Of a stretch of 64,000 nucleotides of DNA, positions 28,852 through 31,708 are shown one piece after another. The position numbers were made by a program, and so were the translations under genes. This stretch comes from Candidatus Sulfotelmatobacter sp. (GTDB taxonomy: Bacteria; Vulcanimicrobiota; Vulcanimicrobiia; Vulcanimicrobiales; Vulcanimicrobiaceae): the NCBI GenBank assembly GCA_035504415.1, contig DATJRY010000011.1, positions 310,001 through 374,000 of the forward strand, written 5' to 3'. The notes under the pieces were generated by a model. The model had not been told where the DNA came from. It saw nothing but the letters and a program-made list of their open reading frames with translations, and did no database searches. How positions within the stretch are numbered: position 1 is the first letter of the stretch; each line of letters begins with the position of its first letter.

Positions 28852-29934
28852 TCAGCTCTCGCGGTCCCAGTAGTCGAGCGCCGGGCTCGCGCGCACGATC
28901 GTGTCGCCGACCTCGATCAGCACCTTGTCGGAGTCGGGATAGAAGCAGACGTCGGTGTCGTAGGCGTAGCGCGCGATCATCAGGACCTCGACCTCGTCCT
29001 GCGTGTCGTTCCAGAGCCGGTGCGCGCCGGCGGGACCGACCGGAAACGCGACCAGATCGCCTTCGCGCAGCGCGAACGTTCCCTGCGGCATGCGCAGCGT
29101 CGGCGCTCCGCGCAGCACCAGCAGCAGCTCCTCTTCGCGCGCGTGCCAGTGCGTCGGGCACAGGTGGACGCCGGGCGGCAGCCGGTACGCCGCCGTGCCG
29201 AGCTCCATCCCGCCGAGCAGATAGCCGACCTCGGCCGTCCACGCGCCGCGGAACGCCGGCGGCGCGTCGAGACCCTGGAAGAAGCGCAGCTCGTCGAGGT
29301 TGACGCGGAAGGTGGCGACCCCGTCGCGCGCGGCGAACATCGCGTTGAGCGCGGCGTACGCGTTGCCGAAGATGCACGCGCCGTCGCCGACCAGCAAGTG
29401 ATCGGGCTTGACCGCGCGCAGTCGGCGCAGCGCGAGCAGCGCGCGCGCCGGATCGGCGAGCTTCGCGTCGGGCATCAGCGTCAGCGCACCCGCCGGCGTC
29501 CCCCAGATCGCGTCACCGACGATCACGGCCTTGCGCGCGCGGTCGAACAGCGCGACCTCGCCGGGCGTCTTGAGTCCTTCGAAGCCCAGCACGCGCCAGC
29601 CGTGCACGAGGTCTTCCGGTTGCAACGTCGCGTCGGGCGCGCGCGTCAGCTCGGCCGCGTCGAGCGCGGGCGCGAGGACGCGCGCACCGGTCGCCGCGGC
29701 GACGGCCGCGCTGCCGCGCTCGTGGTCGCGGTTGGTCACGATCACCGCCGCGACGCCGCGCTCGCGCAGCTCGGCCAGCAGCGCGTCGTCGGGCGCGATC
29801 GGATCGACGACCAGATTTCCCTCGCGCGTCTCGACGAAGAAACCGTTGAAGTCCAGGTTGCGGTCGGGCTGCCACGCCGACCACGACCAGATCCCGGGGA
29901 CGACCGTCTGGCGCATGCCGGAGACTTCCGACAC
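28852..29934 (-). CDS. Metallo-beta-lactamase-like fold fused to a cupin
   Basis: 360 residues. The N-terminal part (about 10-205) follows the MBL fold: DFNGFFVETREGNLVVDPIA, then VIVTNRDHERGSAAV in place of the metal-binding HxHxDH. Only Asp-His is kept, so two metal ligands are lost and catalysis by that domain is doubtful. The C-terminal part (about 240-345) is a cupin with CPTHWHAREEELLLVLRG, the first metal-binding motif, and ahead of VGPAGAHRLWN. No signal peptide is present. It follows the selenocysteine-candidate DsbA gene by 47 bases on the same strand. The cupin probably holds the active metal. Confidence 0.7.
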   Translation of the reverse strand: MSEVSGMRQTVVPGIWSWSAWQPDRNLDFNGFFVETREGNLVVDPIAPDDALLAELRERGVAAVIVTNRDHERGSAAVAAATGARVLAPALDAAELTRAPDATLQPEDLVHGWRVLGFEGLKTPGEVALFDRARKAVIVGDAIWGTPAGALTLMPDAKLADPARALLALRRLRAVKPDHLLVGDGACIFGNAYAALNAMFAARDGVATFRVNLDELRFFQGLDAPPAFRGAWTAEVGYLLGGMELGTAAYRLPPGVHLCPTHWHAREEELLLVLRGAPTLRMPQGTFALREGDLVAFPVGPAGAHRLWNDTQDEVEVLMIARYAYDTDVCFYPDSDKVLIEVGDTIVRASPALDYWDRES

Positions 29935-29981: not shown

Positions 29982-30596
29982 TCAGGACAAGGCCCGCACG
30001 ATCTGCTCCGGCTCCATCATGCCGCTGATCGCGCGGCGGTTCGGCCAGCCGTAGGCCGGGACACCCTGCACGCCGGCCGCATGCGACGCCGCGATCGACG
30101 CGTTCACCGCCGGCGCGAAGGCGTGGCGCTGCCAGGCGGATTCGACGTCGGCCCGCGAGATGCCGAACGGCGCCGCTTGCGTCGCGATGATGTCCGGATC
30201 GGCGATGTTCGCCCCGTCGGCGAAGAACGCGCGCGACACAGCGTGATGAAAGGTCGCCGCCGCGTCGTCGCCGGCACGCGAGCGGACCAGCTCCATCGTC
30301 TCGAGCGCGAGCCGCGAGTTGGCGTTGCGCCGCGGCGGATCGATCGGCAGGCCCACGTGCCGCGCGAGCTCGGTCAGCCGGGCGCGAATCGCCGGCCACT
30401 GGGCGTCCGAGAACGGCTTGTCAGCGCCGCTCGGCGGCACCTCGGGATGGAGCTCGAACGGCAGCCAGCGCGTGCGGACGCCCATTTCCTTCGCCGCCTG
30501 CTCGATCCAGACCGAACCGAGATAGCAGAACGGTCAAACGACGTCCGACCAGACCAGCAGGACGCGCTCGTCGGCGTGCGGCTGTGCGGTGCTCAC
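29982..30596 (-). CDS. DsbA/FrnE-like oxidoreductase with in-frame TGA at the active site, candidate selenoprotein (UPFC)
   Basis: Read from the GTG at 30596 the protein is 204 residues, if TGA at 30536-30534 is decoded as selenocysteine. The segment is SDVV-U-PFCYLGSVW, matching the CPFC/CPWC redox motif of the FrnE-type DsbA family with U at the first cysteine. The rest fits FrnE: WLPFELHPEVPP, and GVQGVPAYGW with the cis-proline. The GTG overlaps the tcuB stop (GTGA), so this is the natural start. The only in-frame start after the TGA (ATG at 30485) would lose the redox motif. A strong SECIS-like hairpin follows. It would act as a cytoplasmic thiol/selenol disulfide exchanger. Alternative: a broken gene with Cys to stop mutation. 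Confidence 0.72.
30501..30521 (-). promoter_or_regulatory. Candidate bacterial SECIS element
   Basis: In the mRNA, CUCGGUUC (30521-30514) pairs with GGAUCGAG (30508-30501) through eight consecutive pairs, two of them G-U. The loop is GGUCU (30513-30509). The loop begins 20 bases after the UGA, within the distance range known for bacterial SECIS elements. GGUCU also occurs at the tip of the E. coli fdhF element (AGGUCU), as I recall it. No bulged U of the fdhF type is seen. Confidence 0.62.
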
Positions 30597-31708
30597 GTGT
30601 CCGTGTTCGGGCCGTGCGGGGTCGCTTCCCGTTCGGCGGCGTGCTTGACCAGCGCGATCGAACGATACATCGCGTGCACCAGCTTCCCGTACGGCGCGGT
30701 CGTGAACAGCCCGACGATCGTGCCCAGGTGCACGATCAAGAGCGTTCCCATCGCCGGCGTCGTGCGCAGCGCGAGCAGCGCCAGGCCGCTGAGCGCGGCC
30801 AGCTCCAGCAGGACGAGGAACGCGTCGTCGAGCGCGAGCTGCCGCGCCGCCGTCGGGGCGGGATCGCTGCGTCGCTTGACGACGAACAGGCCGGCGGCGC
30901 CGATCGCGAGCGCGATCCCGCCGAGCGCACCGAGCGCGACCGGCGGACTCCACAGCGGATACGGCGGCACGCGGTGCAGGAACTCCTGACCGATTGCCGC
31001 CAGCGTCGTCGCCGCGAAGTTGGCCGTGACGCCCCAGAACACCAGGCCGTGGAAGATCCGCCGGCGGCTCGACCCGCGGCCTTCGTCGTAACAGCCCACG
31101 CCGCCGCCGCGCAAGTACGTCAACGCGAGCGCTTCGCGCAGGGCGGTGCGCAGCGTCGATCCACGAACGAACGGCGCGCCGCCGCCGATGTCGCGCGCGT
31201 ACGCGCGGCCGGCGACCACCAGCGCGAACGCGCCGGCGAGGACGAGCGCGGTTGCGCCGGTGACCATCACCGTATAGGGCAGCACGCGGTAGAACGCGCC
31301 GGGGCCGAGCGCGGGCGTCCAGAGCGCGGTGGCGCCGGACGCGAGCAGCACCGCGCACAGCACGATTGCGATGCCGGCGGCGACGGCGAGGACGGCCGTT
31401 CGGGCCGGACTGCGCAGCAGCGCGCCGAGCACGGCGGGCCTGGCGTAGCGCGCGTAGGTCTGCACGCGCGCCTGCGCCATGATCGCCGGGATGTTGACCG
31501 CGTAGTCGTGCGGCGGCGTGAACATGCAGGCGTCGAAGCACATCCGGCAGTCGTGACACAGACTCGAGAGATAGGCGAGGTCGCCGTCGCCGATCGCCGT
31601 GCGCAGCTGCGCCGCGCCGAACATCGCGCAGAAGCCTTCGCAATAGCGGCAGGCGTTGCAGACCAACAGCTGGCGGTCCAGCTCCGTCGTCAGGTCAAGC
31701 TCGAGCAC
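30593..31708 (-). CDS. tcuB: TcuB-like iron-sulfur/heme membrane protein (tricarballylate utilisation)
   Basis: 371 residues. The N terminus carries two four-cysteine clusters, CNACRYCEGFC and CHDCRMCFDAC, for 4Fe-4S centres. Six to seven membrane helices follow, the first at about 100-125. TcuB re-oxidises the flavin of TcuA by passing electrons to the quinone pool. Start and stop codons overlap those of its neighbours: the first 14 bases overlap tcuA, and the last 4 overlap the candidate selenoprotein. Conserved membrane histidines (RIFHGLVFWG, IVHLGTIVG) fit the family. Confidence 0.9.
   Translation of the reverse strand: MLELDLTTELDRQLLVCNACRYCEGFCAMFGAAQLRTAIGDGDLAYLSSLCHDCRMCFDACMFTPPHDYAVNIPAIMAQARVQTYARYARPAVLGALLRSPARTAVLAVAAGIAIVLCAVLLASGATALWTPALGPGAFYRVLPYTVMVTGATALVLAGAFALVVAGRAYARDIGGGAPFVRGSTLRTALREALALTYLRGGGVGCYDEGRGSSRRRIFHGLVFWGVTANFAATTLAAIGQEFLHRVPPYPLWSPPVALGALGGIALAIGAAGLFVVKRRSDPAPTAARQLALDDAFLVLLELAALSGLALLALRTTPAMGTLLIVHLGTIVGLFTTAPYGKLVHAMYRSIALVKHAAEREATPHGPNTDT

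Follow-up and report, generated by a model that had tools for sequence, protein, structure and literature searches.

Does the TGA triplet that interrupts a DsbA-family gene in the window (the whole stretch of 64,000 nucleotides analysed here) code for selenocysteine (Sec), or is it a lesion, an assembly error, or a codon read as cysteine? The host probably belongs to Eremiobacterota, a little-known soil phylum. We put at roughly 93% the probability that the gene, called here Sec-FrnE, encodes a DsbA-family selenoprotein of the FrnE branch with a redox-active site, in which UGA is read as Sec by means of a hairpin. The directly established part of the case consists of the position and conservation of the codon, the conservation of the hairpin, the complete set of sel genes in the host genome, and the predicted fold.

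The interrupted frame and its orthologues

The gene and its interior codon are located as follows:

29982..30596, minus strand: Sec-FrnE gene, coding for a DsbA-family oxidoreductase (translation, PF01323, orthologues, AlphaFold model)
30534..30536, minus strand: UGA codon, first residue of the CxxC-type site, very probably read as Sec (TGA conserved in orthologues)

The preliminary description of the locus had placed a TGA, at 30536-30534, at the first Cys position of a CPFC site, within a frame that is intact on either side, and both statements hold. Translation begins at a GTG (30596-30594, minus strand) that shares bases with the upstream gene's stop codon (GTGA), and the frame is open from the interior TGA to the terminating TGA at 29984-29982. 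Counting the interior TGA as Sec gives a protein of 204 residues, with Sec at position 21 in a UPFC motif and Cys24 as its sole cysteine. The DSBA domain (PF01323) matches residues 12-202 with E=8.8e-26; no NCBIfam model matches the protein at 0.01, and a PADLOC search gave no match. The AlphaFold model, built from a nine-row alignment, has a mean pLDDT of 91.4, and residue 21 is predicted to lie immediately N-terminal to helix 22-38. In the thioredoxin fold, the reactive residue usually sits just before the first long helix.

TGA is one base away from TGC and TGT, and the host genome (4.17 Mb) is a draft assembly in 21 contigs, so the gene might be a pseudogene, or an ordinary CPFC protein hit by a nonsense mutation or a sequencing error. 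The orthologues speak against this. We scanned 149 genomes of the phylum by alignment search, scoring at most 21 candidates per listed genome, and 26 genomes had a match: 14 full-length orthologues, one C-terminal piece at a contig end that lacks the column and was left out of the 14 (G028), 10 divergent genes with TGC or TGT, and one locus with no readable motif (L139). TGA occupies the Sec column in 14/14 full-length orthologues, that is, in the window's own gene and in 13 from other genomes. These genes are 50-89% identical to one another behind the TGA, their frames are open on both sides of it, and the site is UPFC or UPYC in every one. Retention of TGA in this column across all full-length orthologues rules out chance; together with the sel genes of the host genome (see below), it leaves the pseudogene or error explanation, which the orthologues refute, with a negligible probability.

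The preliminary description had left to FrnE-type relatives the question of whether the column is Cys, Sec, or something unrelated. A protein search of 60 relatives found a match in 14 genomes, with exactly one internal TGA in nine. In a contig scan of the best 80 of 534 relatives, 8 close loci have TGA in the column and 72/72 distant loci have TGC or TGT, rather than codons for unrelated residues; the scan favours Cys, as it used two patterns of which one demands a Cys. Judged by length, the eight close loci are on contigs already represented among the orthologues (L035, for example, is that of G110) and were not counted again. The phylum also has FrnE proteins of the Cys type (those of G016 and G089 among them), which differ from the window protein in having Cys in the column, in 10/10 readable cases; in the tree none of them groups with the Sec clade, and the G016 protein is 29% identical.

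In a tree of 60 of the 97 rows (L139 was excluded, and two thirds of the Cys rows L061-L114 were thinned), the 14 Sec proteins form a single clade with 100/100 support, on a long branch. The nearest row outside it is a Cys protein from an actinobacterial metagenome assembly, likewise on a long branch. No genome in the 149-genome scan yielded both the Sec and the Cys type of FrnE.

The tree of the Sec proteins (L115-L128) is discordant with the genera: the window gene clusters with that of G110, which belongs to a different genus, and the gene of G017, likewise from a different genus, falls together with four from the window's own genus. This branching pattern hints at transfer or uneven loss.

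A candidate bSECIS and the selenium genes of the host

A two-part helix follows the codon:

30501..30521, minus strand: upper hairpin of the candidate bSECIS, with an 8-bp stem (30521-30514 with 30508-30501) and a GGUCU loop (30513-30509); it lies within the coding frame
30494..30528, minus strand: outer helix of the candidate bSECIS, five pairs (30528-30524 with 30498-30494)

The upper hairpin is CUCGGUUC / GGUCU / GGAUCGAG; its 8 pairs, with the loop 20 nt past the UGA, are those of the preliminary description, and a small internal loop separates the upper stem from the outer helix. Limits for bSECIS elements, as quoted in a 2026 review (PMC13188914), are a loop of 3-9 nt with a G among its first two bases, a stem of 4-16 bp, a spacing of 16-37 nt, and MFE <= -7.5. 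The Sec-FrnE hairpin lies within all of these published limits, with a 5-nt loop beginning GG, a stem of 8 bp, a spacing of 20, and an MFE of -18.5 over 52 nt.

Hairpins of this general kind are common in the window, and we rejected their frequency as stand-alone proof: a stem of at least 8 is found behind 73/1209 TGA triplets (both strands; under the loop and spacing limits but not the energy limit). The fold z-score of the region is -1.36, and 22/200 shuffles fold equally well. The earlier argument that a random nonsense mutation would be unlikely to have both the exact site and a hairpin is thus weaker than it was put as regards the hairpin, because hairpins behind a TGA abound in this GC-rich DNA; it is the TGA in the orthologues that excludes chance. 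A 5-nt loop beginning GGUC with a stem of at least 6 is found at 3/1209 TGA triplets, by a criterion set after the site had been seen, and among these three only the Sec-FrnE site has 8 pairs.

Consensus folding of the 14 orthologous sequences gives the two-part helix. Of the alignment cells of this 13-pair structure, 93.4% are paired, compared to 26-53% after a shift of one to three columns. All sequences but one (13/14) have the loop GGUCU; that of G085 is AGUUU, where a G is still within the first two positions. In 9/14 orthologues the bottom pair of the upper stem is broken, and the unconstrained fold of the G017 sequence favours another structure, without the hairpin. Covariation was discarded as proof of the hairpin, since it amounts to one pair with a double change, in one sequence, and is not significant (59/500 shuffles reach the same). 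The uniformity of synonymous codons is the better argument: among 101 scored codon columns with conserved residues, the most uniform codons are in the six-column stretch U+3 to U+8 (identity 0.84). In the core, U+4 to U+11 (6 columns), codon identity is 0.79, vs 0.54 in the remaining columns (one-sided p=0.005); from U+1 to U+14 (11 columns) it is 0.68, vs 0.54 in the remainder (p=0.027), with p values that are optimistic because the orthologous sequences are related. Part of the conservation of the hairpin is owed to the protein, as the hairpin sits within strongly conserved protein sequence.

We built a covariance model from the 14 elements and searched the genome with it, scoring 150 of 7928 first-look candidates. 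Among them it recovered the Sec-FrnE element itself at 2.3e-20, followed by 10 weaker matches, the best at 1e-4. Four of these (L151, L152, L157, and L158) have a TGA at the match start or within about 10 bases of it, in frames that looked non-coding; the remaining six have no such TGA, and none of the 10 was accepted as a selenoprotein. The model missed the two other candidate selenoprotein genes described next, and is therefore no general SECIS finder.

The preliminary description pointed to selA, selB, selC (tRNA-Sec), and selD as the genes to look for in the same genome, and all of them are there, over their cut-offs. The tRNA-Sec scores 75.2 bits (cut-off 47) and is typed by ARAGORN as tRNA-SeC with anticodon TCA; selA scores 469 bits, selB, directly behind it, 265 bits (295 joined), and selD 377 bits. 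The same cut-offs are exceeded in named control genomes by selA in 1/14, selB in 2/14, selD in 2/14, and tRNA-Sec in 5/14. The selD gene (contig 11, 469995-470918; locus L018) itself has one in-frame TGA, at ACAG-U-ASK, with a hairpin whose GGUCC loop is 32 nt past it. A molybdopterin-domain gene (PF00384; contig 14, 29067-30413; locus L163), which we take to be of the formate dehydrogenase type, has an in-frame TGA at ARI-U-HSS and a hairpin with a GGUCU loop 18 nt past it. This gene likely codes for a further selenoprotein of the host. SelD and FdhA are both among the selenoprotein families listed in the 2006 survey (PMC1794560). The 5-nt GGUC loops shared by Sec-FrnE, selD, and L163 are most naturally read as the marks of one SelB that would recognise one loop type.

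UGA-to-Cys recodings are known in some bacteria, and the column holds Cys in the distant relatives, so the codon could be imagined to specify cysteine, through an opal cysteine tRNA or through Cys-loading machinery, perhaps when selenium is scarce. We regard this as very improbable in a genome that has the full selA-selB-selD-tRNA-Sec set with an ARAGORN-typed tRNA-Sec, a selD with its own in-frame TGA, and a bSECIS-type hairpin behind the Sec-FrnE codon. Elsewhere in the genome UGA behaves as a normal stop and not as a general sense codon: TGA terminates tcuA, tcuB, the Sec-FrnE gene, and 2/3 other window genes checked. Among the 14 Sec-FrnE orthologues, the window gene included, 8 end in TGA.

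Across the carriers of Sec-FrnE, selA is found in 12/14 and tRNA-Sec in 11/14, the search for selB having covered the host genome only; selD is over the cut-off in 9/9 carriers tested, with an in-frame TGA in 8 and none in that of G010. Neither selA nor tRNA-Sec was found in G002 and G087 (drafts, 83% and 91% complete), and tRNA-Sec was not found in G088 (draft, 68% complete). In 7 carriers, selA and tRNA-Sec are on the same contig, about 12-38 kb apart from start to start, so that one unassembled stretch could explain the loss of both. Among 60 relatives, 51 have selA and 53 have selD over the cut-off, and 40/55 over-cut-off selD matches contain one TGA. Judged by these genes, Sec use looks general in the phylum, and the co-occurrence of sel genes with Sec-FrnE is therefore not informative alone.

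Relation to FrnE, proposed reaction, and gene neighbourhood

Replacement of the first Cys of a CxxC motif by Sec was cited in the preliminary description as a known mode for bacterial selenoproteins, and the published tables agree: DsbA-like UxxC selenoproteins have been known since 2005, when nine sequences from the Sargasso Sea were listed under COG2761 (PMC1088965). They reappear in the tables of a 2006 survey (PMC1794560), in a 2016 table with figures of 41 and 45, which we take as organisms and genes (PMC5029168), and in lists of 2022 and 2026, where NIP15863.1 is an example (PMC9312934, PMC13188914). Form 1 of the DsbA-like selenoproteins (PF01323; COG2761), as it appears in those tables, belongs to the same Pfam family as the window protein and has the same UxxC, Sec standing where the first Cys would be. 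The likeness seen is one of family and site; the present proteins differ in forming a Sec-only clade, within a phylum that is probably Eremiobacterota.

The nearest solved relative is FrnE of Deinococcus radiodurans (5CNW, 5COH, and others), both by sequence (E=2.1e-19) and by fold (E=3.6e-12, TMq 0.82). According to the text of one FrnE study (PMC8945050), FrnE proteins are predicted cytoplasmic thiol oxidoreductases; those of Deinococcus have CP(W/F)C, where the window protein has Sec for the first Cys. Many FrnE proteins also have a C-terminal CxxxxC, and the window protein is without it; the same text notes that some other FrnE proteins also lack this motif, which is therefore not a defining one. 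The D. radiodurans FrnE mutant is described there as more sensitive to cadmium and diamide, the protein as reducing DTNB when given NADPH and thioredoxin reductase, and a title cited in that study names FrnE a disulfide isomerase chaperone (PMC8945050).

The fold is shared more widely. Streptomyces coelicolor SCO1869 (3GL5) and HCCA isomerase/kappa GST proteins match it at a greater distance than FrnE, and 3GL5, 3FZ5, and 2IMD match Sec-FrnE by sequence as well as by fold. Sec-FrnE might then be a selenoprotein of the kappa/HCCA-isomerase branch, with isomerase or glutathione transferase activity in place of disulfide reduction, as the structural matches to HCCA-isomerase-type and kappa GST proteins (3fz5, E=5.4e-8; 3rpp, E=3.8e-6) and the sequence match to 3fz5 (5.6e-8) would allow. 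FrnE is, however, clearly closer on both counts, and both redox positions are kept in all 14 orthologues, which makes such an assignment improbable.

On the preferred reading, as an FrnE-branch selenoprotein, Sec-FrnE should be a disulfide reductase or isomerase in which Sec21 attacks and Cys24 resolves. By analogy with known systems, the GGUCU-loop hairpin 20 nt past the UGA is most likely the binding site for SelB with its Sec-tRNA(Sec), and Sec would be inserted at the codon, placing Sec21-Pro-Phe-Cys24 where the first long helix of the thioredoxin fold begins. Sec21, as a selenolate, most likely attacks disulfides (or peroxides); Cys24 would resolve it through a selenenylsulfide, which may be re-reduced by a thioredoxin- or glutathione-type reductant. 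By the same analogy the protein may be cytosolic. Inspection by eye showed no hydrophobic leader at the N-termini of the 14 orthologues.

The upstream genes could be taken as a different clue to function:

30593..31708, minus strand: tcuB, the upstream gene, with its stop overlapping the GTG start; context only (TIGR02484, 330 bits, over the cut-off)

A tcuA gene (NF006130 match) is also found upstream of Sec-FrnE in the window. With tcuA and tcuB both identified and the GTGA overlap in place, Sec-FrnE could be a translationally coupled partner of TcuA/TcuB in tricarballylate use. At the 13 other full-length loci, tblastn searches with tcuA, tcuB, and the downstream gene found none of them in the flanks (2-6 kb upstream, 4-6.6 kb downstream). 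The tricarballylate link is thus unsupported, and a role in it is exceedingly improbable; of the coupling claimed in the preliminary description, the overlap itself is confirmed in the window and was not found at the 13 other loci, and it is most likely incidental.

No other neighbour recurs beyond one genus, save two weak matches (32-34%). We chose 20 neighbour ORFs on their length and base composition; Pfam matches, of mixed kinds, were obtained for 14 of them. We dropped the neighbourhood as a guide to function, because the context differs between genera.

Directly downstream of Sec-FrnE, at 28852-29934 of the window, is a gene for a metallo-beta-lactamase-type domain (Lactamase_B_5) fused to a C-terminal cupin; NCBIfam has no match for this fusion.

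A proposed Sec-only clade, probably in Eremiobacterota

Sec-FrnE appears to be a further DsbA-like UxxC selenoprotein, of a kind that is already known, in a Sec clade that seems to be new. Among the main texts searched, nothing turned up on this clade or on selenocysteine in Eremiobacterota, and the main text on the first cultured member of the phylum has no word starting with 'selen' (PMC9758169). That organism is described in the same text as aerobic (PMC9758169). Selenoproteins are rarely retained by aerobic bacteria according to the 2026 review (PMC13188914); many aerobic Sec users were already counted by the 2016 survey (PMC5029168), so aerobic Sec use in this phylum would be a further case and not a contradiction.

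It is possible, and we offer it tentatively, that a distinct FrnE branch in Eremiobacterota made its own change from Cys to Sec, with no reversion in 14 genes set in unrelated neighbourhoods, and that Sec serves there in a redox task for which a Cys enzyme is no replacement. Such a task might, for instance, be disulfide repair in acidic, oxidising peat, where the selenol would stay ionised.

An ordinary gene caller would truncate Sec-FrnE or miss it, and the analysis adds a well-supported selenoprotein. Most sampled genomes of the phylum, whose cultured member is aerobic, have selenium genes (selA in 51/60 and selD in 53/60 relatives). With no Cys form in its 14 genes, the Sec clade lends itself well to the question of what benefit Sec brings in air.
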